Shown one piece after another: positions 22,772 to 59,119 of a stretch of 64,000 nt of DNA. Within the stretch, counting starts at the first letter, position 1, and each line of letters starts with the position of its first letter. The notes under the pieces were generated by a model that worked only from the letters and a program-made list of their open reading frames with translations, did not search any database and was not told where the DNA came from. This stretch comes from Limnomonas spitsbergensis (taxonomy: Eukaryota; Chlorophyta; Chlorophyceae; Chlamydomonadales). The position numbers were made by a program, and so were the translations under genes. Location of the stretch: the NCBI GenBank assembly GCA_037349105.1, contig JAYJMM010000060.1:207687-271686 (forward strand). Direction: 5' to 3'.

Positions 22772-22909
22772 TACGAAATACTTTCATGCCCACGGCCGTG
22801 TAGAACTGCATATGAATGATTTTTGAGATTATCTTCGAACCGACCTGCGTCATTCGACCCCTCGTTTGGATGAGTCTTCCTTAGAGAGGCGCTCCTGTGC
22901 GCACTTATT

Positions 22910-23541
22910 ATGCAGCGGCTTCGCGTCGCTTGCAGCATACTTATTATTTTCCTCTGTGAGCCTCTGGAGACGATCGCCAGCCCTCAGGTACCTCTCTCTC
23001 CCTCCTCCCCCCTTCAACGCCTCTGTGGCTCAATCATCCCCCTCGCGCCCTGACGCTGAAAACCCCGGCCTCAAATCTCCCATCGCAGGCCCGACACGGA
23101 CCCAGGCACCTGCAAGCAAGCCCACTACCCGCCAATGCGACCCCGCCTTGTAACGCGACCACCCAGCGCGCTGGTCTCCTAACGCTCTTCGACGCGACCG
23201 GGGGTCCCACATGGCGGAACCAGCAAGGCTGGCCGGCCCTCAGCAGCCAGCAGGACTTAGCCGATTACCTAGCCACCGCTGCAGTCCAGTCCGGGAGCTG
23301 CACTGTCGCGCTGTCCGTCAGCATCGGAATCTCCAGCAGTATCTTTCCTGGCATCCAGGGAGTGGTCTCAACCGATGCCGCTACGACGGATAGGTCGTCG
23401 AGCACGCTGCTGCCCGACCACTGCTGCTGGTTTGGGGTGTCGTGCCGCGCCATGCAGGCGAGCGTGCCGGACGGCGAGGCATCGTCGCTGCCATGCAACT
23501 GCACCGGCCTAGTCACTGGCTTGTACCTAGCAGGAAACAAT
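22910..23541 (+). other. signal peptide and LRR N-terminal cap (exons 1-2)
   Basis: Exon 1 encodes [20 protein letters not shown], a basic start plus a hydrophobic core. Exon 2 encodes the cap seen in plant and algal LRR receptors: [19 protein letters not shown] (residues about 56-74), paired cysteines in HCCWFGVSC (about 137-145), and [10 protein letters not shown] opening the first LRR (about 168-177). Confidence 0.85.
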
Positions 23542-26500
23542 GTGAGCAATGCAGGGAGTAATGAGCATGCATGTGGAGGGATCAGGGTGAAAGAATGTGA
23601 CCGGGGGGGTTTGAATGACATGGGCATGGTAGGGAATGACGTATGCATGGCGGGTCCGAATGACACATGCATGGCAAGGACTGACATGAGCATGGTGGGG
23701 AATGATATATGCATGGCGGTTCCGAGTGACATGTGCATGGCAAGGAATGACATAGGCATGGTCGGGAATGACGTATGCATGGCGGGTCCGAATGACATGT
23801 GCATGGCAAGGAATGACATGGGCATGGTGGGGAATGACGTATGCATGGCAGGTCCGAGTGACATGTGCATGGAAAGGACTGACATGGGCATGGTGGGGAA
23901 TGACGTATGCATGGCAGGTCCGAGTGACATGTGCATGGAAAGGACTGACATGGGCATGGTGGGGAATGACGTATGCATGGCAGGTCCGAGTGACATGTGC
24001 ATGGAAAAGACTGACATGGGCATGGTGGGAATGACGTATGCATGGCAGGTCCGAGTGACATGTGCATGGAAAGGAATGACATGGGCATGGTGGGGAATGA
24101 CGTATGCATGGCAGGTCCGAGTGACATGTGCATGGAAAGGACTGACATGGGCATGGTGGGGAATGACGTATGCATGGCAGGTCCGAGTGACATGTGCATA
24201 GAAAGGACTGACATGGGCATGGTGGGGAATGACGTATGCATGGCAGGTCCGAGTGACATGTGCATGGAAAGGACTGACATGGGCATGGTGGGGAATGACG
24301 TATGCATGGCAGGTCCGAGTGACATGTGCATGGAAAGGACTGACATGGGCATGGTGGGGAATGACGTATGCATGGCAAGGACTGACAAGGGCATGGTGGG
24401 GAATGACGTATGCATGGCAGGTCCAAGTGACATGTGCATGGAAAGGACTGACATGGGCATGGTGGGGAATGACGTATGCATGGCAAGGAATGACATGGGC
24501 ATGGTGGGGAATGACGTATGCATGGCGGGGAAGGGCATGGGCATGGTGGGGAATGATGTATGCATGGCGGGAAAGGGCATGGGCATGGTGGGGAATGATG
24601 TATGCATGGTGAGGAATGATGTATGCATGGCGGGTCTGAATGACATATGCATAGCAAGGAATGACATGGGCATTGTGGGGAATGACGTATGCATGGCGGG
24701 GAAGGGCATGGGCATGGTGGGGAATGATGTATGCATGGTGAGGAATGATGTATGCATGGCGGGGAATGACATATGCATAGCGCAGAATGATTTATGCATG
24801 GTGGGGTATGATTTTATGGCGGGTAATGATGTTTGCATGGTTGAGAATGATGTATGCATTGTGGGGAAAGATGTATGCATGGCAGGGAATGATGTATGCA
24901 TAACGGGTCTGAATGATGTATGCATTTCCCAGCACCCTTCTTGTGTTGCTGTCGCACCAATGTTGCACCCCTGTTGTATTGCTGTTGCACCCCTGTTGTA
25001 TTGCTGTTACACCCCTGTTGTGTTGCTGTTACACCCCTGTTGTGTTGCTGTTGCTGTTGCACCCCTGCTGCAATGCTCTTACACCCCTGTTGTGTTGCTG
25101 TTACACCCCTGTTGTGTTGCTGTTGCACCCCTGTTGTGTTGCTCTTACACCAGTGTTGTGTTGCTCCCTGCAGCTAACAGGTGGCAACTTTGGGTTGTCG
25201 TCAATGGCGGCGGCTCTCTCGGCTCTGTCTTCTGAAGACCCATTGGTGTCGTTCGGTTGCAGCTTGATGGATCTGGACCTGAACAGGAACAGCCTTTCTG
25301 GGTCCCTACCCGCATTCCTTGCCGACATGACGCAACTTAGGAGTCTGGATATGGCGCGGAATAAGCTGAGGGGCACGTGAGTGAGCTGTGAACCCTCCCC
25401 CTTATCCCTAGGCTAGGCATGGAGAGGCCCATCCTGCCCTGTTACCTGACCGTTATGATGGATGTGGCGCGGAGGACACAAACTGAGGGGCACATGAGTG
25501 AGCTGTGAACCCTCCCCCTGAAACTTAGGCTAGGCATGGTGGGGCCCATCCTGCCCTGTTACCCGACCGTTACGATGGATGAGGCGCGGAGGACACAAAC
25601 TGAGGGGCACATGAGTGAGCTGTGAACCCTCCCCCTGAAACTTAGGCTAGGCATGGTGGGGCCCATCCTGCCCTGTTACCCGACCGTTACGATGGATGAG
25701 GCGCGGAGGACACAAACTGAGGGGCACATGAGTGAGCGTGTGACCCCTCCCCCTCAACCCTAGACTAGGCAGAGAGGGGCCCCTACCCGCTTTCCTCGCT
25801 AACGCGATGCAGCTGCAGAGTTTAGACTAAACCCCTTCAGCCCTACCATTGGGCTCTTTGGTGGGCGATAATCAGAATAACCCTCAACCCTTAATCCTCA
25901 AGGAGGCCAGGCAAGTGGAATGTTAGTTTTTTTACCCCCTCTATTTGATATACCACCCCTGATCTAACCCTTAACCCTTAACCCTAAAAACTTTAACCCT
26001 GAACCCTAAAACCTTTAACCCTAAAACCTCCTATTAGGCAGACCACCCCCAATCTAAACCTAAACCCCTAACCATAGCCCTTCTATAAGACAAACCACCC
26101 CTGATCTAAACCAAACGCCTAAACCCTATCCCCTTTATTAGGCAAACCACCCCTGATCTCAACCGTCACCCTAAACCCTAACCCCTGTATTCGGCAAATC
26201 ACCTCTGATCTAAACCTAAATGCTCAACCCTAACCCCTCTATTAGGCAAACCACCCCTGATCTCAACCTTCATCCTAAGCCCTAAGCCTTCTGCTCCTAA
26301 GCCCCCCCCCTGATGAAACCTCCTGTCCCTGCACTGAACAGGTTGCCGAATCACCTAGGGGCGCTCCCGTCCCTCCAATACATCTCCTTGTCGGGTAACC
26401 AGATCAGAGGTGAAGCGGGTGGAATATTGAGTTGCTGCTGAATCTCTTTTAGGGTAAAGAAAGAATGAAAAGAAAGAAAACTACGCTCCCCTAGGGGCGT

Positions 26501-29500
26501 GCGGGTTAAGGGAACAGCGCAGCTCGGGGCCGAAGCCACATCTCTATTAGGGTAAGTAGGGAGGGAGGTTTAGAGTTGTGGCTGATTCTCGGGCCAGGGG
26601 GCCTGTCACTTAGGGGGTCGGACGAGTCCCCTGCTGACAACCTCAGTCGACCGTTGGGATGGGGTCGTTCCCCGCGAAAAATTTACCGGCGTCCAGGACT
26701 GAAGCTTTTTAATACGGTATGTCCTTTTGACCCCAAGCTCTTCACCCTGCGCTAGGGCTGGTGCCGGACAGCCTGTGCCAGCTGGGCACAACATATCTGA
26801 ACATATCTGAACATATCAGAACATATGTCACCATATGTCACCATATCTGAACATATCTGAACATATCTGAACATATCTGAACATATCTGAACATATCTGA
26901 ACATATCTGAACATATCAGAACATATGTCACCATATCTGAACATATCTGAACATATCTGAACATATCTGAACATATCTGAACATATCTGAACATATCTGA
27001 ACCAGGGAAGGGACGCCGGGCCCGGCGCCGGGAGAAATGGGCCAAAGGCCCATTTCTGCCGGTGAGCCAGCGAACCCCCTTCCGGTAAACCCCGGCGAAA
27101 ACGGGGGTTTGGCTGACTACGCCCTCGGCGGAGGTATTTTAAATTCCCTCACAGTCTCCCCGGCAAGAACTTCCCTCGAAATGAATGAAATAGACGATGA
27201 TAGCGACTTTGAAATGCGTTGTGATGACGCGGTCGAAGATGTCGAAGTACTCTAAGAGGCCACTGCACCGCCCCCACCTCCCGCGAAGCGAGCAAGGGTA
27301 AACCTCTTGTCATGGCGCGCGCCCTGCAGCTCAACAGCCTGCACCGCCGGAATATGCCCCCGAAGCTCAGCCAGTCGAGGCCCCTGCAGCCCAGGCCGTC
27401 GATTTAGCTCAGCAAGAAGAGGCTCCTGTGGACTCGGTACGTCCATTCGAAATTTACCACATTTCTCGCAATCAACGACTGTGTTCGAAGAGGCATTGAA
27501 GTATCGCTCATAAATAATAATCGCGTTTGTCTCTTATCTCGGATGCAGTCGAATAGGGGGCCGACCGAGCCACCTGCTACCGCCAAGCTCCTCGCCTCAT
27601 GGCTGGTGAATCCTCAGCATAAGGAATGGGCGGTGTGCGGAGATGCCAGCAAAGGAAAGCTGGAAAGCAGCGGATCCAACGCTAGAAAATTGTGAAAAGT
27701 GTGGAAAACAAATTCCGTCCATACCGCCGGCCAATTTTAGACCCTTCCCGGCGAAAACCGGCCACTTGGCTACCCCCCGGCCCTTCCCTGATCTGAACAT
27801 ATCTGAACATATCTGAACATATGTCACCATATATTTGTGTGCATGACTTTTGAATCCTCTTCCCCCTGCGCTAGGCCCCGTGCCGGACAGCTTGTGCCAG
27901 CTAGGCAGCTTGAGCCCCTTGATCGTCTTGTCTCTATCCAGCAACCTGCTCACCGGCAGTCTTAACATATCAGAGTGCCGGAGCCTGGTGGCCATCGATG
28001 CAGCGGTGAGTGCTGCCTTGCCAGGACCAGAAATCTAAAGATTTACTAAAGATTTACTAAAGATTTACTATATATTTACTTAAGATTTACTATATATTTA
28101 CTAAGGATTTACTAAATATTTACTAAATATTTACTATACATTTACTATATATTTACTACACATTTACCATATATTAACTCTATATATATACTTTAATTTG
28201 CATTCTGATGCCTGGACTGTTGATAATAATGTTGATTTGAGGAAGCAACACATTGATGCAGCCGTGAGTGCAGCCTTGCCAGGATCAATAGATTTACTTC
28301 AATTTGTATTTTGATGCCTGGGCTGTTGATAATATTGTTGATCAAGGAATCGGCGCTTTGATGGATTGAAGGCGGCAGGGTGTGGGGATTTGGTGTGAAA
28401 TCTCCTCACTTGCTACGCCCCCCCCCCCCCCCCTCAACTCTCACACCCCCTCACACCCTGACCTCCCCCCCCCCTCCCCCTTCTTTCCCCTCCCCTCTCC
28501 CCTCCCCTCCCCTTTATCCCCCCCCCCCTCCCCCTCATCCCTCACTGCAGAGCAACCGATTGTCAGGGGCACCCGTCAGCCCTGCAGCCCTCAACCGCTT
28601 GCTGACTCTACACCTCGCGAATAACAGTTTCAGCGGCATCCCGGCAGGCCAGCACATTGCTGACCTGGACTTGAGAGGCAACAGCGGGTGAGTGGGTGCT
28701 GGGTCAGTGAGTGCATTCGTCATCTAACGTTTAAGCTAATTGGTGCATTCACCATTTAGCGTTTAGGGTTATTGCTGTATTCACCATCTAGCGTTTGTAG
28801 CCAGTCGGTTCATTTAACCCCTAGGATAGTCGCTGCGACTTGGACTGAAAAGACAAGATTGGGTGAATGGGCCTTGGGTTGTTGTTCCAAAGTTTATGCA
28901 ACCATTTCATTGCCTGTAATCCCGGGCCATTACGGGTAAAAATTGCTGAATTTGCATTCAAATTATGGTGACTGAAGATAAGGTATATAATTCAGTCACC
29001 GTAAGGACCGTAATCGCGGCTTGACACTGTTCCCAAGCTGTCATATCCTGTATACCTGCTCTTTCTCAGGATCTGTTGCGGACCTTAATCTCTAAAGCCT
29101 AAACCTTTAACCTAAGAATGGTGAGTGTCGTAAGGGGCAGCGTTAGATTCTAACGCGTTAGAGGGTTGCAGGGTCCGGAGCCTATATAGCCTGCATGCAT
29201 GCTCTTTCCCAGGATCTGTTGTGTACCCTTACCCCTAACACCTAAACCCTAAACCTGTTATATCCTGCATGCATGCTCTTTCCCAGGATCTGTTGTGAAC
29301 CCTCAGGGGGTACCCTGGCCTCCATGAGGTCTTTAAGCAGCCTCAACCTAAGAGACACAAACTTCACGGTGAGAAGAGCAGCGAGGATGCAGTACAATAT
29401 AGCCAACTGTTGCCATTCACCAACTGCCATCTGCCAACTGCCAATGCTGTCCTTGGTCAACTCCTTCCTGCAGGGCACGATTCCCTCCGAGCTGCTTTCA

Positions 29501-35360: not shown

Positions 35361-35405
<45 letters not shown>

Positions 35406-47400: not shown

Positions 47401-50400
47401 TAATTGTAGTACCAAGTTGTTTTTGTATTGCGTGGTTGTATGAAGTACCAATATTTTCCAAAGAGCCTGCACCTTTCACGAAACCCCAAACACTTCACCC
47501 TAAACCCTCAAACCAGGTTGCCCATGTGCCCAAATCCTAAGCCCTACACCCTGAATCCAGGTCACGCAAGTGCCTGAACCCTTAGCCCTGAATCCAGGTC
47601 ACTCATGTTCCTGAACCATAACCCTTAACTCCAAGTTCAGGTCATGCGTGTGCGCAAACCCTAACCCCTAAACCCTAAATCCAGGTCACTCAAGTGCTTG
47701 AACCCTGAACCCTGTACCCTCAATCCATATACTTTGGTTCATACACCCTACACCTTAAATCCAGGTCGCTCGTGCCCAAACCCAGAACCCTACACCCTGA
47801 ATCCAGGTCGCTCATGTGCCTAAACCCATGTCGCGCATGTGCCTTAACCCTTAACCCTAAACTCAGGCCGCGCATATGCCTACACCCTAAACCCTAAACC
47901 CATGTCGCGCATGTGCCTTAACCCTTAACCCTAAACTCAGGCCGCGCATATGCCTACACCCTAAACCCTAAACCCATGTCGCGCATGTACCTTAACCCTT
48001 AACCCAAAACTCAGGCCGCGCATATGCCTACACCCTAAACCTAGTACCCTGAAACCCTAAACCCTGAACCATCGATCCAGGTTGCTCATATGCACGGCGG
48101 CGCCTCGAATCATGCCAGCTTCTCCAATGATCCTGCAGACACCTTCATCCCGGGTAAGAAGGGTTTGGAATTGGGGTCCAGGTTTTGGATTTGGAGTTAA
48201 GGGGTCCAGGGCTGGGGCAAGGCTTTGGGCCATGTCAGGAGACACCTTCATACTGGACGAGAGGAGGCGGGTACTTGGAATCTCCAAATGCCAGATTGGG
48301 TTTTTTTAGTTCAGGGTTTGGGATTGGGGTTCGTAGCCAGGGGCTGGGCAAGGCTTTGGGTCATGTCAGGAAGCACCTTCTCCAACATGACACCTTTGCC
48401 AGCATGGACAAAGCTGCGGAAAAAACACGTTCATTTTGTTGTTTGCACTCTTGATAAATTGATGCCAAATTCATTTTGCATTCCTGATCAATTCATTTAA
48501 AATTCATGATGCATAAGTGTGAAATGTATGTCACAATGTCACATCCTCCTTTTCTCTCCATTGCAGGCATGCTGGTTCGGATGGGCATTGCCACAGGGAA
48601 GCTGCGTCATGGACAGAGCCCCTCAGAATCACCCATTATGGAGCTGTCGAAATGTAAATGCTGGGAGGAGGGGGGAGATTGGATGGGATGGGATGAGGGT
48701 ATAGAATGAGATGAGATGAGGGTGTGGGATGAGGGTAGGGGATGGGATTAGGTTATTGGATGGAATGGGATGAGGGTATGACTTGTGGGTAGGGAATGCG
48801 ATCTCCTGCTGCAATCCAACATGGGATCTGGATGGGATCTGGAATGGGATCTCCTGCAGCAACTTCGTATAACTGGTGTGGTGCTGTGCAGGTATCCCTG
48901 ATGTTGGTGCTGGGGGGCAGGTGCTCATATGCACAACCACCTTCCTGGCGGTGCAAGATGTGCTCATGTGCTGGTGTCTGTGCACAACCACCTTCTTGGT
49001 TGTGCCAGCTGGCTGGCCGAGAGGAATGCGCTCACGTGCTTATGTGCTATGCACAAACGCCTGCTGTGCAGGTATCTCTGATGCTGGTGCTGGGGGGCAG
49101 GTGCTCATGTGCACCACTACCTTCCTGGCGGTGCGCAATGTAGCAGATGAGCTCGGATGCATCACCAAGGACGGGCTGGATCTGGAGCAGCTGGAGAAAC
49201 CCTCTTGGTGGTTTTGGTGGAGGTGAGGACACTCAGAGGATCTCTCATTATTTAAAATATCAAATTCCAGTCCAAGACGGGTGACAACGCGGATGTGGCT
49301 TCTGCCCAGGCTGTGCTGCTTCATTTACTGTACCCTAAACCCTCGACCCTTCACTCTTAAACCTTATCCCTTGATCCTTGACCCTGCACTTTAAACCCTG
49401 AATCATTGACCCTGAACCCTTGACACTTGTCCCTGAGCTCAAAACCCTTAACCCTATACCCTGAACTCTTAGCATCTTACCCTGAACCCTTAACTTAAAG
49501 CCTCTAACCCTCTAACCCCCTCAACCTTAAATCTTGTCGCAGTTCAACCTCCATCAAGAGGGGCAACGATGCGGTCCTGCTAGACATGGGTGGGTGGGAC
49601 ACTCGGTTAGTTATAGGTTTCGTCTGCTACCACAGAACACAGATTTAGCTTGAGTTCATCATGTCAGTGCTCATAGCCTATGTCTGGTGGAACCCCTAGG
49701 ACAACAATGCGGCCCTGCTTGTTATGGGTGAATGGGAAATTATGTTATACATTTTAGGTTTTATGTTATACATTTTAGATTTTATGTTATACATTTTAGA
49801 TTTACCCTTAAACCCAAACTAAGCCAGGAAATAGATACCCATGTTCATAAAAACTATCTCTGCATCTGTATTCGCAGCTATACCCCCCCCCCACACTCTC
49901 TGACCTCCTCCGCTACCAGTACCCCTCCCCCCAGCACACTCTGACCACCTCCGCCACCAGTCCCCCCTCCCAACGTCTGGTAGGGGACCCTGATGCACCC
50001 AGCCCAGCTGCTCGGGCACCCGATACGTGTTTACTTTGCGCCTTGAAAAAAAAAAAAAGCGAAATGAACGCCGTGTGGGTATTTAAGCCATCTCTCCGAA
50101 TATTATTTTCGCTCATTTTCGCAGGGTCGTTGGCAATGTTTTCGGTAGGCATTCGACAGTCGTTCGCAAAGCTTTCGCGACGTTCTCCCGAAGCGCGGTA
50201 AGGGATACTAGTGGGCTGTGTGGATTACGACTGTCCCCCGAATATCCGTTGAAAATCCTATTTTCCGAAACCAGCGCTTACCAGTTTCGCTTATTTGTCG
50301 GTAGACTTTCGTCTGTCTTTCGCAAAGTGTCAGCGTTGTTGTTCGGTAGGTAGCGATGTTTTTCGGTAGCCTATCGTGATTCTGTCGCTGACTTCATTTA

Positions 50401-53400
50401 GACAATGTTTCGGTAGCCTTACATTAGTTCGGTGGCAATTTGTTTTTCGGTAGTCTTACATCCACACGTTCCTTAGAAGTCCGTCACTCTTTCTCGTCCA
50501 GCGCGCCCCTCCGAACCCTGAAACCCTCTAACGCGTTAGAATCTAACGCTGTCCCTTACGACACTCACCTGTATTATTGTATTATTATTATTGTTGTATT
50601 ATTTTTTGTTGGATCCCAACTGGCCCAGCGGCAGCTGCTCAGCAAGCGCTCCCGAGGTGGCTTGGCGCGCACTGCAAATGAATACACAAATAAGTAAATG
50701 TGTACAAACGATACGCCATGAGGCATGGATTAAGGAAGCCACCCGTTCGGCCGTAGTGCACTAGGTGGGCTACCATGACGCCCGTTAAAACAAACAACAC
50801 CCCTTTACTTCAGTATGCAGGGAGATGTTTCCATCATGCCCCCTGGGGGTTACCCACTACTCTGGGGGAGGCCCAGCTTCCTTCCAATGTTTATATTAGC
50901 GCACTTCGGCTACAACACAGCTCCAATTCAGCTACAGCTCAGCTACAGTGCAGCTTCAATTTAGCTGCAATGCAGCTACAACACAGCTTCAATTTAGCTA
51001 CAAGTCAGCTACAAGTCAGCTACATCACAGTGTGCAGGTTGGGGGAATCTTAAAAGCATCATGCAGCAAAGTGCCTGCTGCTTGGACTAGCAGCCGAAGG
51101 CCGGTACCCGTTCTGCCCCCCTCCGCCCTGTCGTGTCCGACCGGCAGCCCTATAACTATGATTTAGGGCTCACTCTAATAGGCATTGCTAGCTTGCTGCC
51201 TCTCTTTTATATTGGAACCTGCAGTTGGAATTTATTTTGCAATCGGGCACTTGGAACACGACCAAGTGTGATTGACATGTACCTTGAGTATGGACCTGAA
51301 ATCTCCGCTGGACGGCACCGGAGGATCGGAAGAAACGTGGTCTGATGACGAAAGCGTGGTCTCTGATGGAAGATCGTGTGTCCACTGATTTGTGAATTAA
51401 TTTTGGGTGGACATGTAAACAAATATAAAAAGAAATTACGGCCACACTGCCGACCACTCTCTTAGACCCCCTGGCCAGGCTATGCCACGGCCAAAATGAG
51501 AACCTTGTCCGGCAGAAAACGGCTAATTGGCAGACCCCAGACCCTGAACCCTCAGGTTCCCTCCGCCCGCCCCATGCCCCCAGGCCAGTACATGTACTGC
51601 CCCAAGGGTGTGGAAGTACCGCTGGTGTTCACACCCGAGGAGCTGGGCCTGGACCTCCACCCTGAGCGGGGGTGGCGCTTGGACGCCTCGCTCAACCGCA
51701 GCGGCGGCACGCGCGGCGGCAGCAGCAACGCGCGCGTCGTCAGCGGTTTCGGCTACCCGCGCGAGAGCCCGCAGGTGGCCGAGCAGGCTGCAGCCGGGCG
51801 GCCTAAGTCCGTTGGCTCTATTCTGTCCGAGGGCGAGCTGATGCGTGTTTACCAGGTCTTGTCTCCGGGGCTGGTGTCGAGAGCGCGCGTGTTCGGGAGC
51901 AAGATGGCACTGTGTAAGGAGTGGCTTTGTGTGGACGGACCATTCTTCAGCGCACCAGGTGAGGGGAAGAGGGGGAGCCGGGGTGAGGATGGAACAATGT
52001 TTACTTTTGGGTGTCTAAGCTACATGTCAGCTACATGTCGTTATAGTGTGCCTGGTGGAGGGGCAGAGGGAGAGCCGGGGTGAGGATGGAACACTGTTTA
52101 CTTTTGGGTGACTAAGCTACATGTCAGCTACATGTCGTTATAGTGTGCCTGGTGGAGGGGCAGAGGGGGAGCCGGGGTGAGGATGGAACACTGTTTACTT
52201 TTGGGTGACTAAGCTACATGTCAGCTACATGTCGTTATAGTGTGCCTGGTGGAGGGGCAGAGGGGGAGCCGGGGTGAGGATGGAACACTGTTTACTTTTG
52301 GGTGTCTAAGCTACATGTCAGCTACATGTCGTTATAGTGTGCCTGGTGGAGGGGCAGAGGGAGAGCCGGGGTGAGGATGGAACACTGTTTAATTTTGGGT
52401 GACTAAGCTACATGTCAGCTACATGTCGTTATAGTGTGCCTGGTGGAGGGGCAGAGGGGGAGCCGGGGTGAGGATGGAACAATGTTTACTTTTGGGTGTC
52501 TAAGCTACATGTCAGCTACATGTCGTTATAGTGTGCCTGGTGGAGGGGCAGAGGGAGAGCCGGGGTGAGGATGGAACAATGTTCACTTTTGGGTGTCTAA
52601 GCTACATGTCAGCTACATGTCGTTATAGTGTGCCTGGTGGAGGGGAAGAGGGGGAGCCGGGGTGAGGATGGAACACTGTTTACTTTTGGGTGTCTAAGCT
52701 ACATGTCAGCTACATGTCGTTATAGTGTGCCTGGTGGAGGGGAAGAGGGGGAGCCGGGGTGAGGATGAAACACTGTTTACTTTTGGGTGACTAAGCTACA
52801 TGTCAGCTACATGTCGTTATAGTGTGCCCGGTGGAGGAGAAGAGGGGGGTGCTGGAGTTGACAGCCTCGGTACCCCCCTACCCCTGTTCTTGGGGTACCA
52901 ATCCTGTGCATGTAACCTTCAAAGAAAAAAGAAAGCTATGCCCCATGGGGGGCGTGAGAGTTAAGGTAACAGCGTCGGCGGTCCCTTCTTCAGTCTTGGT
53001 GGGTGGGAGGATGATAAGGGTTTAGGGTTTGGGAATTTTAAGGGGAAAAGGGGGTCTCAGGTTCACAGCTTCGGGTACCCCAAATCCTCGACATGTAACC
53101 TGCATTTACAATGCAAGACAGCCCGGTGAGGTGTCCTGAATGTTTTTGTTTGCGTTACACTCAGCTGCATGTCAGCTACAGAGGCCGGAGTTCTCGATGT
53201 TGTGACCTGCCATGCTGCATTTGCCGACCGGTCGCGGGCCGGTCCCGGCTTGGTCTCCAACTCGGGCTCCACTCGGTTGCCTTTTGAAAAACAATTCCTG
53301 CAAACCCTTATCAACATCAGTCCTGCGCCCCGAAGGTACTCACTGGTGCGCATCTCCATCTGGGGGATGACCACCCGTGTTGTGCCGCATACGGTCCTGA

Positions 53401-56400
53401 CAGTGGCTGAATTACGTAGCTGAGTATCAGGCACGGCAGTTTTAAGGCATACTCAGCTACTTTCACCAGGATGGGATCATATTTTTGTGAACAAAATTCT
53501 GAATCACGGTGCAATGGGCTCAGCAGTGATACACCCACAGAGCCCCCCCCCCCCCCCCCCGTAACATCGGTTAGGATTTCACCCTAAACTCTACACCCAC
53601 AGACGACACGCCCTACGTAACATCTTTAATCTGAGACCAAACCTTGAGCGCGTAACCCTCATCCCTGATATGCAAAGGTTGAAGGATCAAACCCGCCACA
53701 CGATCTTCTCTCTCCCTCTCTGTCTAGATCTCCCTCTCTGTCTAGATCTCCCTCTCTGTCTAGATCTCCCTCTCTGTCTAGATCTCCCTCTCTGTCTAGA
53801 TCTCCCTCTCTGTCTAGATCTCCCTCTCTGTCTAGATCTCCCTCTCTGTCTAGATCTCCCTCTCTGTCTAGATCTCTGTGATCCCCTGTACCTGTCCTCC
53901 TCACATCAGAGGATGGCATGACGTCACCATGTTCCTGGCTGTGCAATCCTACCATGCACAGTGTGCAGGGTAGCTGGAATTGAGCTTTGAAGTCATTCCT
54001 TACCAGCCCCACGCCGCCGAGCGTTCAACAGGGCCCAGCGGGTATGCCCTGTTCTAAACCCTCACACTGTTGGTGCTCAACAGGCGCCTCTTGTGCCCGA
54101 CTCAATTCCGAGGATCCACTGCGGGCAGAGCTGCCTCCAGTTACAACCGTCTTTTGCATGGTGGACGGCGGGAAGCAGTACTCGTCCCGCCACCACCAGG
54201 ATGCCCGGGAGATGTCCAAGTGCTTGATAGCTATCATGCGCAACATCTTGAGACAGGTAGGTGCAACATCTGGAGGTAAGGGGGTGCAACATCTGGAGGC
54301 AGGTAGGCAGTAGGCGCAACATCTGGAGGTAAGGGGGTGCAACACCTGGAGGCAGGTAGGCAGTAGGTGCAACATCTGGAGGTAAGGGGGGGCAACATCT
54401 GGAGGCAGGTAGGCAGTAGGCACAACATCTGGAGGCAGGTAGGCAGTATGCGCAACATCTGGAGGTAAGGGGGTGCAACACCTGGAGGCAGGTAGGCAGT
54501 AGGCGCAACATCTGGAGGTAAGGGGGGGCAACATCTGGAGGAAGGTAGGCAGTAGGCACAACATCTGGAGGCAGGTAGGCAGTAGGCGCAACATCTGGAG
54601 GTAAGGGGGTGCAACACCTGGAGGCAGGTAGGCAGTAGGCGCAACATCTGGAGGTAAGGGGGGGCAACATCTTGAGGCAGGTAGGCAGTAGGCGCAACAT
54701 CTGGAGGTAAGGGGGTGCAACACCTGGAGGCAGGTAGGCAGTAGGCGCAACATCTGGAGGCAGGTAGGCGGTAGGCGCAACATCTGGAGGTAAGGGGGGC
54801 AACATCTGGAGACAGGTAGGCAGTAGGCGCAACATCTGGAGACAGGTAGGCAGTAGGCGCAACATCTGGAGACAGGTAGGCAGTAGGCGCAACATCTGGA
54901 GACAGGTAGGCAGTAGGCGCAACATCTAGAGGTAAGGGGGTGCAACACCTGGAGGCAGGTAGGCAGTAGGCGCAACATCTGGAGGTAAGGGGGTGCAACA
55001 CCTGGAGGCAGGTAGGCAGTAGGCGCAACATCTGGAGGCAGGTAGGCGGTAGGCGCAACATCTGGAGGTAAGGGGGGCAACATCTGGAGACAGGTAGGCA
55101 GTAGGCGCAACATCTGGAGACAGGTAGGCAGTAGGCGCAACATCTGGAGACAGGTAGGCAGTAGGCGCAACATCTAGAGGTAAGGGGGTGCAACACCTGG
55201 AGGCAGGTAGGCAGTAGGCGCAACATCTGGAGGTAAGGGGGGGCAACATCTGGAGGCAGGTAGGCAGTAGGCGCAACATCTGGAGGTAAGGGGGGGCAAC
55301 ATCTGGAGGCAGGTAGGCAGTAGGCACAACATCTGGAGGCAGGTAGGCAGTAGGCGCAACATCTGGAGGTAAGGGGGTGCAACACCTGGAGGCAGGTAGG
55401 CAGTAGGCGCAACATCTGGAGGTAAGGGGGGGCAACATCTGGAGACAGGTAGGCAGTAGGCGCAACATCTGGAGACAGGTAGGCAGTAGGCGCAACATCT
55501 AGAGGCAGGGGGGCGCAACATCTGGTGCGTGGCAAGTCCCAACGAACAACCCTTATGTACGTTGCGATGTGGCGCATCGTCTGGCGATGTGGCGCTTCGC
55601 CTTGCGCTTTGTTGAATGTGCCCCGCAGAATGTCGTGAGCGGGCTATCCTACTTAGGATAGAATTTCTGTGGGTCGAGCGGTCTCACGCCTCCTGCCTCG
55701 GCGGAGGAGGAGGCTTTCTGCGATGTGCCGGTGCTGCACTTTACTGATGAAAGGAAGGTGGCGAATCCTAACAAGCAACTCTCTTGTCCCTATACACAAC
55801 CAGAGTTTTCCAAGTGGTAAGCGCATCAATTTCAGCTAAAGTGTGGTCTACGGCCACCAGCCCCTGGCTCGGCCAGCCCTGCTGCCAAGGCCTCCGGCCG
55901 GAGGCTGGTCCATGTTTGGTGTCAATCAGCCCAGGGGTGGCCGCGGGACGCCCCATGAAAAGTGTTCTGGTGCCCACTAAGACAGACACTACACACAAGC
56001 ATCCTGTATGTTGCAATGTGCAGGTGTATGGCGGATACTTTGTGAAGAGTATGGAGAGCGAGTTCAAGTATATGCTGAACTTCACCACGCCAGAGGTGCG
56101 ATCGTTTTTTAGGAATCTGCTTTAGGGGAGACTGCAAAGGATTTGCCGGGGAACAACTAGCGCAAGCCAGAGGTATAGTGGAGAAAGAAAAGACACAAAA
56201 TAAACCACAAGACACAAAATAAACCACAAGACACAAAATAAACCACAAGACACAAAATAAACCACAAGACACAAAATAAACCACAAGACACAAAATAAAC
56301 CACAAGACACAAAATAAACCACAAGACACAAAATAAACCACAAGACACAAAATAAACCACAAGACACAAAATAAACCACAAGACACAAAATAAACCACAA

Positions 56401-58631
56401 GACACAAAATAAACCACAAGACACAAAATAAACCACAAGACACAAAATAAACCACAAGACACAAAATAACAGCCTGCCTGGTGCTAACTGGCGGCGTTGT
56501 TGGTGGATTTTGAATCCTTGCCACGAGGGCAGAGTCTTCATTTCTTTTCTACATTCTGAACTTCGCCACGCCAGAGGTGCGATCATTTATTTTGTTATCA
56601 GCCTGCCTGGTGCTAGCTGGCGGCATGGTTGGTGGATTTTGAATCTGTGCCGCAAGGTCAGAGTCTTCATGTATTCCTACATGCTGAACTTCACCGCGCT
56701 GGAGGTGCGATCCATCTCATGATATCCACAATTACATTATGTACCCAATTACGTGATTTAGCCCAATTATCTGATATAGCCCAATTACGTGATTTAGCCC
56801 AATTATTTGATATAGCCCAATGACGTGATTTAGCCCAATTATTTGATATATCCCAATGACGTGATTTAGCCCAATTATTTGATATATCCCAATGACGTGA
56901 TTTAGCCCAATTATTTGATATAGCCCAATGACATGATCTCCAATTACGTAAAATAGCCCTCCCAGTGTAGCGGCGGAATAGGTTGCTTTCAAATCCATGC
57001 CGCAATCCTTAGTATTCATATGTTTGGATTTGCTACAATTGTCAAGGCTCAGTATTTGTGTGTACATGTTCAGCTACATGCTCAGCTACACGCCCAGCTG
57101 CATGATCAGCTACATGATTTGCTACATCACATCCTGCATCTTCCAAGGATGCAAGCAGGGTAGTAGAGTACCTGGGGACCCAACCTTCAGCTACACTGGT
57201 CGCACTAATTCAGCTACGCTGGTTGCACTAATTCAGCTACACTGGTTGCACTAATTCAGATACACTGGTAGCACTAATTTAGCTACACTGGTTGCACTTA
57301 TTCAGCTACACTGGTTGCACTTATTCAGCTGCATCACGTCCTGCAGTTGGCAGGGACTAGTGAAACCAGCCTCGTAGCTGAGGACACCGGTTGTAAGCCC
57401 TTGAAGGTTGGGTCCATTTTTGTACTCAGCTACATATCAGCTACAATCTTGCTTGTTGTCAGAAGCCCCAGGTGTGGGCAGCCACTCCGCCACAACACCA
57501 GGTGGTTTAGGGTTAAGGTGTAGGGTTTAGATAACCCCTAAACCATTAACCCTAAACTAGGCCAGCCATGCTGCTTGGGTGGACGGCTGTTGGCTGGACC
57601 AGGTTTGGTCCCTATCGGTTCCGGACAACCGCGGGCCTTGTAGCCAAAAGACAGGATCATTCTACTGGTGGACCAACGGCGTCTACCCTGAGAGCCCTGT
57701 TACTTGTTTAGGGTTAAGGGTTTAGTCTATATTAGGGTTAAGGGTTTTAGGGTTTAGAACCGTACCAACGGCATGTACCCTGAGAGTACCCTGCTACTTG
57801 TTTCTGTAAATTTTATCACCCTGCCGCACTTCAGTCAATGCCACACAGATCCATCACAGATAAATCACAGATCCATGACAGATCCATCACAGATTCCACT
57901 TGCCAGGTTCCACTGTGTACGTATCACATCCTGATTTGTATAATGCACTAAACGGTACTTTCATGGGCATGTGTGATAACCATTATTTATGAATTGATCC
58001 CCTCCCCTTCGACCCCGCAGGATGCCTTGTACTGGTGTGCTGCAGTACAAGTCAGCATCATGTACGCCGAGTGGCCCATCACCTGCCTCATGCAGTGGCC
58101 CTCGGAGTCTGGGGAGGGAGATCAGCTGCTGTTCAGAGGGCCCAGGTGAGGCAGGGACTGGGAAGTGTAGACAGTGTGAGGGAGTGTGGGGTGAGCAGTG
58201 TGACCCTCGGAGTCTGGGGAGGGAGATCGGCTGCTGTTCAGAGTGCCCAGGTGAGGCAGGGTCTGGGAGGTGTGGAAAGTGTGAGCCAGTGTGGACAGTG
58301 TGGGCCATGAACCCTGAACTATGAAACATGAAACATGAACCCTGAACTATGAACCATGAACCATGAACCCTGAATCATGAACCATATTTGCTTGTAGGCT
58401 CAAGATGGGTTTTGAGTGAAGGCGTCCCCACGTCCATCCAGCCAGACCGCTACACTTAAACTATGAACGCCGAACGCTGAACCATGAATCCTGAATCCTG
58501 AACCCTGTCTGCTTGTAGGCTCAAGATGGGTTTGAGTGAAGGCGTCCCCTCGTCCATCCAGCCAGACCATATGGGGCGCGCAGATTACCACGGGAACAGC
58601 GTGAATATGGCCGCCCGCTACATGGATGCAG
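22910..58631 (+). CDS. LRR receptor with single TM helix and tandem class III nucleotide cyclase domains (3' end beyond window)
   Basis: Twenty-seven exons, every junction in matching phase: 22910-22987, 23089-23541, 25174-25376, 26342-26409, 27875-28005, 28551-28687, 29287-29368, 33491-33585, 35047-35092, 37380-37510, 38056-38193, 38621-38726, 42928-43079, 43842-43972, 44585-44695, 45013-45068, 45412-45472, 46762-47192, 48081-48153, 48567-48653, 49072-49222, 49543-49589, 51584-51958, 54084-54256, 56024-56095, 58021-58145, 58519-58631. They encode about 1275 residues so far: signal peptide 1-26, LRR N-cap and plant-type LRRs to about 470, TM helix about 588-611, cyclase C1 about 639-1085, cyclase C2 from about 1132. 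The predicted role is a plasma-membrane receptor that makes a cyclic nucleotide, most likely cAMP, on ligand binding. The start is chosen as the first ATG giving a signal peptide in frame. Coding DNA is about one tenth of the locus. The C-terminus of C2 is not visible. Confidence 0.85.
23590..24925. repeat. 66-bp minisatellite in intron 2
   Basis: The full unit runs from gacatgggcatggtgggg, aatgacgtatgcatggc, aggtccgagtgacatgtgca to tggaaaggact. About 20 units occur, mixing full and shortened forms. It gives long spurious Met/Gly/Asp-rich open frames on both strands. Confidence 0.95.
24930..25173 (+). repeat. about 22-bp array ending at the exon 3 acceptor
   Basis: Units of gttgctgttacacccctgtt run right up to gttgctccctgcag. 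The last unit grades into the acceptor. Confidence 0.85.
25377..25832 (+). pseudogene. copies of the exon 3 end, donor lost
   Basis: Three 119-bp units repeat atggcgcggaataagctgag-like sequence as gcgcggaggacacaaactga, ggggcacatgagtgagc. The parent donor GTGAGTG reads ATGAGTG in all three, so it is inactive. A fourth, different copy (about 25776-25830, ccctacccgctttcctcgct) derives from an earlier part of exon 3. Confidence 0.85.
25900..26310. repeat. telomere-like CCCTAAA tract in intron 3
   Basis: Degenerate ccctaaaccctaaccc mixed with a unit of about 70 bp (ggcaaaccacccctgatc). Similar tracts occur at 35930-37330, 43690-43830, 47220-48080 and 49330-49530. Confidence 0.8.
26455..26545 (-). 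repeat. short dispersed element, family B
   Basis: gaaagaaaactacgctcccc taggggcgtg, then gcgcagctcggggccgaagc. Confidence 0.75.
26746..26795 (+). pseudogene. decoy copy of the exon 5 acceptor and start
   Basis: ctgcgctagggctggtgccg, gacagcctgtgccagctggg matches the true acceptor and exon 5 start at 27866-27905. It runs straight into the 10-bp array. Confidence 0.8.
26795..27830. repeat. 10-bp acatatctga array, split by a transposon
   Basis: About 20 units lie at 26795-27002, and the array resumes at 27791 for a few units. Variant units (acatatcaga, acatatgtcacc) mark internal duplications. Confidence 0.95.
27003..27790. mobile_element. hAT-like non-autonomous DNA transposon
   Basis: The ends are inverted: CAGGGAAGGG at 27003 and CCCTTCCCTG at 27781-27790. 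Both flanks read atctgaac, an 8-bp direct repeat, the target duplication size of hAT elements, whose ends also typically start CAGGG. The caveat is that the target is itself a 10-bp repeat, so flank identity is less telling. Inside are further palindromes (27037-27055) and a short acidic open frame, but no recognisable transposase. Confidence 0.7.
28030..28200. repeat. AT-rich 11-bp repeat in intron 5
   Basis: Units of agatttactaa / atatttactat follow the exon 5 donor. Confidence 0.85.
28246..28300 (+). pseudogene. decoy copy of the exon 5 end and donor
   Basis: attgatgcagccgtgagtgc, agccttgccagga matches atcgatgcagcggtgagtgc and tgccttgccagga at 27993-28025. The donor GTGAGT is intact. Confidence 0.8.
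29050..29240 (+). pseudogene. two decoy copies of the exon 7 acceptor
   Basis: ctctttctcaggatctgttg (about 29059) and ctctttcccaggatctgttg (about 29200) precede the real ctctttcccaggatctgttg at about 29276. A family D element lies between the first two. Confidence 0.8.
29474..33490 (+). repeat. 39 x 103-bp array of exon 8 acceptor plus exon start
   Basis: Thirty-nine units of exactly 103 bp (4017 bp in total). Each holds a tgactgcag acceptor (or close variant) followed by ggcacgattccctccgagct and 40 further exon bases. Each reads [20 protein letters not shown] and then Cys and TGA. The fortieth copy (33491) is the productive exon 8, where TGC is followed by CGC and the LRR continues. Units are very similar, with a few shared variants (aaggcacg, ctaattgtc, cttcctgtc) that point to multi-unit duplications. 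Confidence 0.97.
33590..34410 (+). pseudogene. decayed copies of the exon 8 end and donor in intron 8
   Basis: At about 33713-33765, 34130-34180, 34252-34310 and 34348-34400 the sequence resembles gccaactgccgcctatcggg and catcccaacatccattggg. Two copies end atcggtaagttg, a better donor than the parent's ggtgggta. A 58-bp palindrome copy lies at 33633-33690. From 34480 to 34860 nothing is recognised. Confidence 0.75.
34880..34980. repeat. 15-bp repeat, about 7 copies
   Basis: Units of aactgtcattgacc lie just upstream of exon 9. Confidence 0.85.
35105..35650. repeat. GT-rich microsatellite/minisatellite in intron 9
   Basis: It starts 15 bases after the exon 9 donor. Regular tgtgtgtttg units come first, then gtgccagtgtgcttgtgtgt units. 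It yields Cys/Val open frames that are not genes. Confidence 0.95.
35930..37335. repeat. telomere-like and degenerate repeats in intron 9
   Basis: CCCTAAACC-type tracts, a unit built on ataaactaggcatcagcagc (about 35960-36225), a duplicated block of about 125 bp (36300 and 36410, tgactgcgaaccggaggcgg), then an acctcaactctaa tract. It ends in a C/CA run before exon 10. Confidence 0.75.
37555..37630 (+). pseudogene. chimeric copy of exon 10 and exon 11 fragments
   Basis: gatgacgtgttgtggtattg resembles gatgtcgtgttgtggcattg of exon 10. The following ggctttctcatccacgtcga, ggcccgcc resembles ggctttttcaaccacgctga, ggcctgcc of exon 11. Confidence 0.65.
37645..38015. repeat. hexamer array (ctgatc / ctgacc) in intron 10
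   Basis: About 60 units. Translates as Asp-Pro or Arg-Ile repeats that are not expected to be expressed. Confidence 0.95.
38408..38430 (+). other. decoy copy of the exon 12 acceptor
   Basis: cccagctgcccctttg repeats the acceptor and exon 12 start at 38616-38631. Confidence 0.7.
38704..42620 (+). repeat. donor-derived array in intron 12, 45/90-bp units
   Basis: Units copy the exon 12 end and donor (ggctgcaagtgtgacctggt gagg). Early units are about 45-50 bp. From about 39390 to 41800 a dimer of 90 bp is amplified about 26-fold, each with ctggtatgc and aatgtaagtatgac (a consensus GTAAGTAT donor). A third block (41890-42330) repeats a 47-bp unit with attgtaagtgtgacc. Long open frames on the - strand (up to 824 residues) arise because 90 is a multiple of 3. 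Confidence 0.92.
42773..42835 (+). pseudogene. decoy copy of the exon 13 start
   Basis: ggcagggatatgaatacatt, ccacgtcgtgcaagggtatg, cccattgtcatggaatgc matches exon 13 and its acceptor at 42923-42982. Confidence 0.85.
43185..43590. pseudogene. three direct and one inverted copy of exon 14
   Basis: tagtcatgatcgatatgcgc, aagctcatgcatacaatccc (about 43452) and relatives at 43215 and 43340 resemble exon 14's agcatgatggacatgcgcaa, gctcatgcgtgcaatgccc. An inverted copy lies at about 43528-43585. Telomere-like CCCTAAACC bits sit between the copies. Confidence 0.75.
43980..44068 (+). repeat. family B element inserted at the exon 14 donor
   Basis: It is flanked by a direct repeat of exon 14's last bases and donor: gtcaccgacatccagggctt ctcaggta at 43949 and gtcaccgacatccagggctt cccaggta at about 44070. 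Two candidate donors therefore exist, one on each side of the element. Confidence 0.8.
44130..44222. repeat. 17-bp repeat, 5 copies
   Basis: Units of gggccatatttccatat in intron 14. Confidence 0.9.
44423..44510 (+). pseudogene. decoy copy of exon 15
   Basis: gagctgaccacagcctgtcc, ccagctggtgatgcctgcgc matches exon 15's agagctaactaaggcctgtc and cggagctgatgatgcacgcg. It reads [19 protein letters not shown] and then meets a stop. Confidence 0.85.
44710..44890 (-). repeat. two family B elements in intron 15
   Basis: gaaaactacgcccctcatgg aggcgtg (about 44727) and gaaaattacgccccttatga aggcgtg (about 44811), each followed by ggcggcctcgag. Confidence 0.75.
45730..45885. repeat. about 52-bp repeat, 3 copies
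   Basis: ggatttgtttagggatcagg gtctagggtaaaac in intron 17. A short gacctatgac repeat lies at 45280-45352 in intron 16. Confidence 0.85.
46150..46745. repeat. about 47-bp minisatellite before exon 18
   Basis: Units of cccccataaccctgcttgta, acccccagattatgtaaccg, tccataa repeat about 12 times, ending about 15 bases before the exon 18 acceptor. Confidence 0.95.
47285..47335 (+). repeat. partial family B element
   Basis: gtccacgccctgatagggcg, tagctttatttctttctt: the palindrome and tail only. Confidence 0.6.
47500..48080 (+). repeat. telomere-like array carrying copies of the exon 19 acceptor
   Basis: About 11 units of 50-65 bp combine ccctaaaccc with caggtcgctcatgtgcc or close variants. They resemble the real acceptor and exon 19 start ccaggttgctcatatgc at 48077. 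Confidence 0.8.
48154..48420 (+). pseudogene. decayed copies of the exon 19 end
   Basis: gacaccttcatactgg (about 48241) and caccttctccaacatgacac (about 48373) resemble parts of exon 19. They sit in two roughly 120-bp units with ggctggggcaaggctttggg. Confidence 0.6.
48660..48800. repeat. GGGATGAG repeat in intron 20
   Basis: Loose gatgggatgagggta units follow the exon 20 donor. Confidence 0.8.
48885..49060 (+). pseudogene. decoy copies of the exon 21 acceptor and start
   Basis: gtgctgtgcaggtatccctg, atgttggtgctggggggcag matches the real gcctgctgtgcaggtatctc and tgatgctggtgctgggggg at 49059. A second, shorter internal copy (tgcacaaccaccttcttgg) lies at about 48980. The first copy reads [20 protein letters not shown] before diverging. 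Confidence 0.85.
49272..49535. repeat. partial family B element and telomere-like tract in intron 21
   Basis: gcggatgtggcttctgccc at 49291, then ccctaaaccctcgaccct-type sequence up to the exon 22 acceptor. Confidence 0.65.
49693..49740 (+). pseudogene. decoy copy of the exon 22 end and donor
   Basis: aacaatgcggccctgcttgt tatgggtgaatggg resembles aacgatgcggtcctgctaga catgggtgggtggg. A 21-bp repeat (ttttatgttatacattttag) follows at 49738-49800. Confidence 0.8.
49880..51540. other. rest of intron 22: dispersed repeats only
   Basis: A repeated ccaccccctccc-type stretch (49885-49980), a ttcggtagcc-rich degenerate region (50100-50470), a reverse family D element (50520-50578) and an AGCTACA-type element (50890-51120). 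No exon with fitting phase was found. Confidence 0.5.
51953..52835 (+). repeat. 97-bp array grown from the exon 23 donor
   Basis: About 9 units. The first coincides with the exon end and donor (gcaccaggtgaggggaagag); later ones read gtgcctggtggaggggcaga. Each also holds ccggggtgaggatgg, another donor-like step, and two agctacatgtc copies. Confidence 0.9.
52920..52990 (-). repeat. short dispersed element, family B
   Basis: gaaagctatgccccatgggg ggcgtgagagttaaggtaac agcg. Confidence 0.7.
53660..54055 (+). repeat. tRNA-derived SINE-like element with internal 18-bp array, family C
   Basis: ggttgaaggatcaaacccgc corresponds to the B-box region of the copy at 10110-10378. The shared body and the end gggcccagcgggtatgccct follow. 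Within it tctagatctccctctctg repeats about 9 times (53720-53875), absent from the other copy. It ends about 30 bases before the exon 24 acceptor. Confidence 0.65.
54245..55525 (+). repeat. donor-derived array in intron 24
   Basis: Units copy the exon 24 end and donor (gcgcaacatcttgagacagg taggtg). Two unit types alternate, caacatctggaggtaagggg and caacacctggaggcaggtag gcagtagg, each with a donor-like GAG|GTAAGG or CAG|GTAGGC. More than 25 copies of each occur, in irregular blocks. Confidence 0.95.
55830..55955 (+). repeat. AGCTACA-type dispersed element
   Basis: ttcagctaaagtgtggtct, then a GC-rich body with ggtccatgtttggtgtcaat. Confidence 0.6.
56190..56468. repeat. 19-bp array, about 15 copies
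   Basis: Unit acacaaaataaaccacaag. It yields spurious hydrophobic open frames on the - strand. Confidence 0.97.
56540..56720 (+). pseudogene. two copies of the exon 25 end and donor
   Basis: attctgaacttcgccacgcc agaggtgcgatcatt (about 56552) and atgctgaacttcaccgcgct ggaggtgcgatcc (about 56681) match atgctgaacttcaccacgcc agaggtgcgatcg at 56072. Donors are intact. Confidence 0.9.
56740..56945. repeat. about 42-bp repeat in intron 25
   Basis: Units of gatttagcccaattatttga tatagcccaatgacgt, about 5 copies. Confidence 0.9.
57060..57660. repeat. CAGCTACA arrays and a dispersed element in intron 25
   Basis: cagctacactggttgcacta units (57185-57330), then an AGCTACA-type element (57420-57660). Telomere-like ttagggttaagg tracts follow to 57755. 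Confidence 0.75.
58200..58270 (+). pseudogene. copy of the exon 26 end and donor
   Basis: ctcggagtctggggagggag atcggctgctgttcagagtg cccaggtgaggcagg duplicates 58104-58155, with the donor intact. Confidence 0.9.
58392..58460 (+). pseudogene. frameshifted decoy copy of the exon 27 start
   Basis: gcttgtaggctcaagatggg repeats the real acceptor and exon 27 start at 58511. One extra T (ggttttgagtga against ggtttgagtga) puts a stop directly in frame. Confidence 0.9.
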
Positions 58632-58707
58632 GTGAGGCAACCAGATCCATGGGATCTACGGCAAGATCCATGGGATCTTTGGTCAGATCCACGAGATCTT
58701 GAGTCAG

Positions 58708-58927
58708 ATCCCGACCATATGGGACGTGCAGATTACGAAGGGAACAGCGTGTTCATGGCAGCCTTATACATGGATGCAGGTGAGGTGACCAGATCCATGG
58801 GATATACAGTCAGATCTATGGGATCTATGGTCAGATCCACGAGATCTAGAGTCAGATCCCGACCACATGGGGCGCGCAGACTACCAAGGGAACAGCGTGC
58901 TCATGGCAGCCTTATACATGGATGCAG
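58708..58927 (+). pseudogene. two in-frame copies of the catalytic exon 27 end
   Basis: 58708-58779 and 58856-58927 are each 72 nt, start after a CAG and end at GTGAGG, in phase 1 at both ends. They read MGRADYEGNSVFMAALYMDA and MGRADYQGNSVLMAALYMDA. The catalytic Asn is Phe or Leu and the catalytic Arg is Leu. They could be decayed copies or in-frame cassette exons; acceptors look weak. Confidence 0.75.
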
Positions 58928-58929
58928 GT

Positions 58930-59060
58930 GAGGTGACCAGATCCATGGGATATACAGTCAGATATATGGGATCTGTGGTCAGATCCACGGGATCTACATT
59001 CAGATCCATGGGATCTGCAGTCAGATTTGTGGGAATTGCAGCCAGGTCTTCTGAACCCAT
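58930..59060. repeat. GATCCATGGGATCT repeat
   Basis: Loose cagatccatgggatctacag units, also present between the exon 27 copies from 58635. Confidence 0.7.
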
Positions 59061-59119
59061 GGGCAGTTTAGTATACTTTAGTTTGGGTCACGAGATGTAA
59101 TGCCAGGATACAGCACAGC

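Follow-up and report, generated by a model that had tools for sequence, protein, structure and literature searches.

A candidate leucine-rich repeat receptor adenylyl cyclase in Limnomonas spitsbergensis and its green-algal relatives

Could a single gene of the green alga Limnomonas spitsbergensis join a plant-style leucine-rich repeat (LRR) ectodomain to a pair of nucleotidyl cyclase domains, and would its product then act as a receptor? The question arises from a stretch of 64,000 nucleotides of contig JAYJMM010000060.1 (hereafter the window), in which an initial annotation proposed a receptor-type LRR adenylyl cyclase at 22910..58631. To our knowledge, the receptors feeding cyclic AMP (cAMP) signalling in green algae are poorly known. 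Here we find that this locus encodes a single predicted protein with an LRR ectodomain, one predicted membrane helix and two cyclase domains (C1 and C2), and we consider it quite likely to be a cell-surface receptor adenylyl cyclase that would raise cAMP on ligand binding.

Read from the sequence, the gene is a chain of 27 exons on the + strand, running from an ATG at 22910 to a final exon that closes at 58631. Base-by-base reading covered 22000-38800, 42500-54300 and 55500-60300; the stretches in between, 38801-42499 and 54301-55499, are arrays. The chain as rebuilt matches the coordinates and exon count of the initial annotation, and its matching phases were recovered: all introns are GT..AG and the phases chain across exons. 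The spliced length of 3826 nt corresponds to 1275 codons plus one base, with 0 in-frame stops against 45 and 27 in the two other frames of the same splice. A start of exon 19 at 48139 (48139-48153) was rejected, as it breaks the frame and yields 10 stops; the acceptor at 48081 restores the frame. Exon 27 is followed by an open splice donor after 58631, inside C2, and therefore the gene continues, with the end of C2 and the C-terminus absent from the model. The features are as follows.

22910..22987, +: exon 1, residues 1-26, start codon and hydrophobic N-terminus (predicted signal peptide; hydropathy 1.79)
23089..23541, +: exon 2, residues 27-177, LRR N-terminal cap; tblastn matches from 8 proteins, best 2.6e-17
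25174..25376, +: exon 3, residues 178-244, LRRs; Pfam and tblastn
26342..26409, +: exon 4, residues 245-267, LRR; one tblastn match
27875..28005, +: exon 5, residues 268-311, LRRs; tblastn 7e-9
28551..28687, +: exon 6, residues 312-356, LRRs; no single-exon match, aligned within the spliced protein
29287..29368, +: exon 7, residues 357-384, LRR; no single-exon match
33491..33585, +: exon 8, residues 385-415, LRR; one tblastn match
35047..35092, +: exon 9, residues 416-431, LRR; no single-exon match
37380..37510, +: exon 10, residues 432-474, final LRR and SCCG motif; tblastn
38056..38193, +: exon 11, residues 475-520, membrane-proximal ectodomain; tblastn
38621..38726, +: exon 12, residues 521-556, membrane-proximal motif; tblastn 3e-11, 12 proteins
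42928..43079, +: exon 13, residues 557-606, predicted transmembrane helix (590-608, with exon 14); hydropathy 2.47, no single-exon match
43842..43972, +: exon 14, residues 607-650, C1 start, VTDIQGFS with metal aspartate D645; tblastn 4e-12
44585..44695, +: exon 15, residues 651-687, C1, E684 at the base-recognition position; tblastn 1e-11
45013..45068, +: exon 16, residues 688-706, C1, second metal aspartate D688; tblastn
45412..45472, +: exon 17, residues 707-726, C1; no single-exon match
46762..47192, +: exon 18, residues 727-870, glycine-rich linker within C1; no match, variable
48081..48153, +: exon 19, residues 871-894, linker end; no match, variable
48567..48653, +: exon 20, residues 895-923, C1 second half (LVRMGIATG); two tblastn matches
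49072..49222, +: exon 21, residues 924-973, C1 end; tblastn 8e-20; near-copy at 48894-49133
49543..49589, +: exon 22, residues 974-989; no single-exon match
51584..51958, +: exon 23, residues 990-1114, inter-domain region; tblastn 3e-15, 16 proteins
54084..54256, +: exon 24, residues 1115-1172, C2 start, M1140 at the first-metal-aspartate position; tblastn 6e-12
56024..56095, +: exon 25, residues 1173-1196, C2, K1180 at the base-recognition position; one tblastn match
58021..58145, +: exon 26, residues 1197-1237, C2; tblastn 2e-12, 19 proteins
58519..58631, +: exon 27, residues 1238-1275, C2, D1260, N1267 and R1271, open donor; tblastn 4e-15, 22 proteins
58713-58779 and 58861-58927, +: the 3' part of exon 27 in two decayed copies, with H1262, N1267 and R1271 replaced (YEGNSVFMAAL, YQGNSVLMAAL)

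Relatives were sought with residues 607-1275 as query, scoring the best 7979 candidates by shared words. At E <= 0.001 this returned 24 proteins, none listed as a protein of the window itself. P0001-P0022 were counted as relatives; P0023 carries PP2C and G-alpha-binding domains, a fungal combination, and P0024, a cyclase of Chlamydomonas reinhardtii, has no LRR match. No LRR member from C. reinhardtii occurred among the 7979 scored candidates, and if that species has none, this may explain why the family has gone unnoticed. The sources named for the relatives are Chlamydomonas eustigma, Volvox africanus, Chlamydomonas sp. UWO 241, Monoraphidium minutum, Raphidocelis subcapitata, Tetradesmus obliquus and Scenedesmus sp. 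PABB004, and the proteins are annotated as hypothetical or cyclase-domain proteins. The sources of three named relatives were looked up and all are Chlorophyceae; nothing points to the prasinophyte origin assumed in the initial annotation. Three relatives nearly fill short contigs (P0012, 1630 residues on 5166 bases; P0006, 1292 on 5876; P0018, 1692 on 6982), which would fit cDNA contigs, given intron-rich genes. A search among shorter proteins with the cyclase part (E <= 1e-10) added 11, namely the relative P0025, P0026 as a PP2C-bearing cyclase and nine further proteins. With the membrane-proximal region as sole query, 814 candidates yielded no match at E <= 0.01, a result that is uninformative as known relatives were missed too, and of 45 stretches in viral contigs that fitted a pattern, 0 were confirmed. 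As judged by homology, the window protein belongs to a multi-species green-algal family that is already in public databases without a described role found.

To assess the exon chain, the 35 proteins from both searches (24 and 11) were compared with the raw window by tblastn (E <= 1e-3). The 188 rows obtained are all on the + strand and confined to 18 of the 27 exons plus near-copies of exon 21, with 2 rows, and of exon 27, with 26. None of the 35 proteins gave a single-exon match at this threshold to exons 1, 6, 7, 9, 13, 17, 18, 19 or 22, while exons 4, 8 and 25 received one row each and exon 20 two. Best matches of P0001 on exons 2, 4, 8, 10, 16, 21 and 23 follow in ascending order along that protein. 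Moreover, the spliced protein and P0002 form a single alignment over window residues 47-1275 (41% identity, E 0.0); with P0001 the alignment falls into two pieces flanking a variable linker. When aligned with P0001, P0002 and P0005, 15 of the 26 junctions are free of gaps (4, 5, 7, 8, 9, 11-16, 20, 24-26), junctions 3, 21 and 22 differ by one residue, and 8 (1, 2, 6, 10, 17, 18, 19, 23) lie inside variable stretches where the check is little informative. Because of the tblastn matches, the collinear P0002 alignment and the junction agreement, we take the 27-exon chain, predicted to encode one LRR-helix-C1-C2 protein, to be confirmed as real.

The protein so predicted starts with a hydrophobic N-terminus (residues 6-24) and continues with a cysteine-bearing LRR cap (motif at 136-145), the LRRs, a membrane-proximal region, a helix (590-608), C1, an inter-domain region and C2. 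Counted by eye, there are ~10 plant-type LRRs in a register of ~24 residues (208, 232, 256, 283, 305, 328, 347, 373, 397, 421); a strict pattern gives five. The membrane-proximal region holds the SCCG motif plus a second motif in exon 12. C1 (~635-970) is interrupted by a variable linker of 168 residues (727-894, exons 18-19), and C2 begins at ~1127 and is cut at 1275 by the end of the model. Hydropathy exceeds 1.6 at residues 590-608 (2.47) and 6-24 (1.79), the next peak being 97-115 at 1.59, so that residues 27-1275 contain no second internal peak above 1.6 besides 590-608. A hydrophobic helix between the LRRs and the cyclase is also present in 20 of the 22 relatives. The hidden Markov model search suggested in the initial annotation was run with Pfam and its profiles match the cyclase family: LRR_1 scored 1.4e-19 in the spliced protein and Guanylate_cyc (PF00211) 6.7e-10 over the whole protein (39.3 bits; cut-off 21.9). 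Taken separately, C1 without its linker reached 31.9 bits and C2 22.3. Pfam gave no match at E <= 1 to the PP2C profile in the window protein or to any kinase profile in residues 1-1275, the C-terminus past exon 27 being outside the model. The profiles, the hydropathy peaks and the P0002 alignment bear out the earlier proposal of one protein in which an LRR ectodomain is followed by a single predicted membrane helix and a pair of class III cyclase domains.

That proposal had described the cyclase domains as tandem. Two are present, but they are not equivalent. C1 and C2 profiles were aligned to PDB structures, and catalytic positions were read from the alignments with trypanosome GRESAG 4.1 (C1 1e-12, C2 3e-8). 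The fold matches are those of class III nucleotidyl cyclases; by sequence, adenylyl cyclases are the nearest relatives in the PDB, and AC9 and AC5 structure matches cover both domains. The PDB matches of C1 include the KDA to EGY mutant of Ma1120, which has a glutamate at the same place as C1. In C1, D645 and D688 align with the metal aspartates, E684 stands in the lysine column, and ELSKC (E920, C924) occupies the position of NMAAR in C2. In C2, K1180 corresponds to the lysine, D1260 to the aspartate of the DY pair, and N1267 and R1271 to the asparagine and arginine; M1140 takes the first metal aspartate position, and the second metal aspartate column reads GD in relatives and S-E in the window protein. 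As aligned, the catalytic residues are divided between C1 and C2, and the full set (two metal aspartates, base-recognition pair, asparagine and arginine) is complete only if the two domains pair. Animal membrane adenylyl cyclases carry C1 and C2 in one chain with a single shared active site; one C1-C2 site is functional and its mirror site is not. Since C1 retains both metal aspartates and C2 retains K1180, D1260, N1267 and R1271, a single ATP site composed of both domains is likewise predicted here.

In a free alignment of 20 proteins (P0003 numbering), N867 and R871 show no variation, and conservation reaches at least 90% at D226, D269 and D860. A catalytic table was also compiled by hand for 17 of 24 sequences (the window protein and 23 relatives). 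Seven sequences are absent from it: in P0009 and P0011 the second C1 motif could not be located, in P0014 the C2 motifs, and in P0022 and P0025 the motifs of C1 and C2; P0019 and P0021 have no C1. P0014 has RPVY in C2 where other relatives have RADY. As the rows were chosen by patterns demanding the first aspartate and the GD pair, both counts are partly built in, and the 20-protein alignment is the better measure.

A tree of 41 cyclase domains (midpoint root, thin sampling outside the family) included C1 and C2 of 15 family sequences, the window protein and 14 relatives. The 15 C1 and 15 C2 domains form two separate clades (100/99 each), and for this reason the C1-C2 pair likely predates the spread of these members. 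The PP2C-bearing cyclases P0023 and P0026 pair outside both clades, and no link between algal and fungal LRR cyclases appears in this small sample of 41 domains. Within the family, P0001, P0002 and P0005 are C. eustigma g6176, g6175 and g6178, near-consecutive numbers each with a contig of 515999 bases, and likely form a tandem cluster; the UWO 241 members 007304 and 007310 also have near-consecutive gene numbers on one contig. Such clustering is a pattern frequent in receptor families.

Would the site use ATP? The same receptor could instead be a guanylyl cyclase, with GTP as substrate and cyclic GMP as messenger. E684 lies at the guanine-reading position of guanylyl cyclases, and 14 of the 17 tabulated sequences likewise have E there; the matching C2 position is R in 13 of 17 and K in 4; and some UniRef names read 'Guanylate cyclase domain-containing', which may merely echo the Pfam name. 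However, a site built on the C1 metal aspartates has its base read by C2, here through K1180 and D1260, the adenylyl pair, of which the D is kept in 16 of 17. The closest PDB relatives by sequence point the same way. Therefore adenylyl cyclase, as first annotated, is the better reading, and a guanylyl cyclase seems unlikely.

Loss of catalysis altogether, with the cyclase part serving an LRR receptor for binding or as a scaffold, would be in line with the absence of the first metal aspartate from C2 and of the transition-state pair from C1, and with the weak Pfam match of C2. Yet these losses are complementary and leave one full site, and its residues show either no variation or at least 90% conservation across the 20 proteins, a constraint needless for a dead module; we regard this explanation as improbable. 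We give similarly little weight to a cyclase whose LRRs lie inside the cell or an organelle. The fungal LRR cyclase Cyr1p is cytoplasmic, according to PMC2939053, and the signal peptide and helix were called here by hydropathy. Against this stand the hydrophobic N-terminus and the helix between LRRs and cyclase, the helix being present in most relatives too. The cysteine-rich LRR cap and membrane-proximal cysteines also argue for exposure, such features being usual in secreted ectodomains. Finally, an artefactual joining of two adjacent genes or of pseudogene exons, conceivable for a predicted model across long, repeat-filled introns with decayed exon copies, is very improbable given that in other genomes the relatives are each predicted as one protein with this order, that the frame is free of stops, and that the catalytic residues are kept in the model's exon 27 and lost in its two copies.

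We regard the exon chain, the domain order, the green-algal homology and the residue split as established from the sequence. In the receptor adenylyl cyclase that we favour, the N-terminus would be a cleaved signal peptide and the LRRs would lie outside the cell. Ligand binding to the LRRs would be signalled through the single helix, alter C1-C2 packing and yield more cAMP. ATP would occupy the one composite site, with C1 supplying D645 and D688 as metal aspartates, and C2 supplying K1180 and D1260 for adenine recognition and N1267 and R1271 for the transition state. The mirror-image second site would be dead, since in C1 E920 and C924 take the places of the asparagine and arginine, and C2 lacks the first metal aspartate. 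With both halves of the site in a single chain, the receptor would not need ligand-driven dimerisation, in contrast to receptor cyclases with a single cyclase domain.

Several points weigh against this interpretation. The signal peptide and membrane helix are predicted by hydropathy alone, C2 barely exceeds the Pfam cut-off and its end is outside the model. The C2 hairpin reads KSMESEFKY here, whereas the GD of relatives falls on the second metal aspartate of GRESAG, and thus relatives may keep more of the C2 metal site. The adenine-reading residue, K here, is mostly R in the table, making the specificity of the family less certain than that of this member. The AlphaFold model is that of a homologue and of poor overall confidence (mean predicted local distance difference test 61, predicted template modelling score 0.54), and the structure matches show no docked C1-C2 pair.

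How does the protein compare with known systems? Green-algal LRR-helix-cyclase proteins (P0001 and P0002 of C. eustigma, P0007 of Volvox africanus, P0010 of UWO 241) share its domain order, cysteine motifs and C1/C2 residue split, and differ in their linkers and in the R common at the position of K1180. Plant LRR receptor kinases have the LRR ectodomain, cap and single membrane helix (by hydropathy) in common with it, but a kinase where it has the cyclase pair. The closest catalytic domain by sequence and fold is that of trypanosomatid receptor adenylyl cyclases (ESAG4/GRESAG4), single-pass receptors with a cytosolic class III cyclase and an ectodomain other than the LRR type. Their one cyclase domain holds all catalytic residues, whereas the window protein splits them over two. 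Animal membrane adenylyl cyclases have twelve membrane helices and no LRR ectodomain; in place of their two six-helix bundles, the window protein shows one internal hydrophobic peak. Fungal LRR adenylyl cyclases (Cyr1/Mac1 type) likewise unite LRRs with a class III cyclase in a single protein, but lack a membrane helix and carry a PP2C domain, many also with G-alpha and Ras binding domains (PMC2939053). With its helix at 590-608 and no PP2C match, the window protein is not of the fungal type.

In the open-licence literature on cyclases we found no description of an algal LRR-membrane-cyclase protein. A 2010 survey of 101 eukaryotic genomes gives LRR and PF00211 in one gene as restricted to Fungi, with fungal cyclase domains nearest to those of Leishmania and Trypanosoma (PMC2939053). 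C. reinhardtii has more than 100 annotated cyclase proteins in more than 20 domain combinations, according to PMC5632652. In the portion available of a Phytophthora membrane proteome study (PMC12223298), 2 of 3 named cyclases are fused to a voltage-sensor/channel part and no LRR cyclase appears. In a Chlamydomonas salinity transcriptome (PMC11355073), the five transcripts with the strongest induction in one comparison include an 'inactive LRR receptor kinase XIAO' and two labelled 'adenylate cyclase'. The claim that the combination is undescribed thus holds in so far as no describing paper was found, but the combination is not unique to this gene, as it recurs across the multi-species family. 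An undescribed kind of algal receptor is likely.

The introns of the gene have features of their own. Copies of the intron's own splice junction (24-mer, <= 4 mismatches) occur in 10 of 27 introns (3, 4, 5, 6, 7, 12, 20, 25, 26 and the open intron that follows exon 27, which is counted among the 27); at the same setting, no copies of these ten junctions are found elsewhere in the window. Intron 7 contains an array at 29458-33553 of 40 units, each 103 bases long and comprising an acceptor and the first part of exon 8; the start of exon 8 itself is one of the 40. In 38 of 40 the unit runs into TGA; exon 8 is the final unit, the one continuing into new coding sequence. The 3' part of exon 27 exists in three copies, of which the model's alone keeps N1267 and R1271. 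From these sequences, the introns appear to have lengthened through tandem duplications spanning splice sites and exon edges. A partial copy of the exon 5 start lies at ~26756, ~1.1 kilobases from exon 5, with a AACATATCTG array between (26756-27874), a stretch that may be an insertion splitting a duplicate. After the last exon, 59386-64000 is a tandem array in which a C-rich unit of 32 bases with strong strand skew recurs ~137 times; the array runs off the window. Elsewhere, 7233-8555 (-) encodes a reverse transcriptase (PF00078, 8.3e-14), likely part of a retrotransposon, and Rfam gave no match in the window at gathering scores.

On balance, we lean towards the view that an undescribed family of LRR receptor adenylyl cyclases, each crossing the membrane once, exists in green algae and joins a plant-style recognition ectodomain to an intramolecular C1/C2 pair. 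Such an algal family contradicts the 2010 statement (PMC2939053) that LRR cyclases are unique to fungi. Candidate proteins combining LRR recognition with a class III cyclase pair exist in several sequenced algae. If true, this would represent a third route from LRR recognition to signal, beside receptor kinases and the cytosolic LRR cyclases of fungi.
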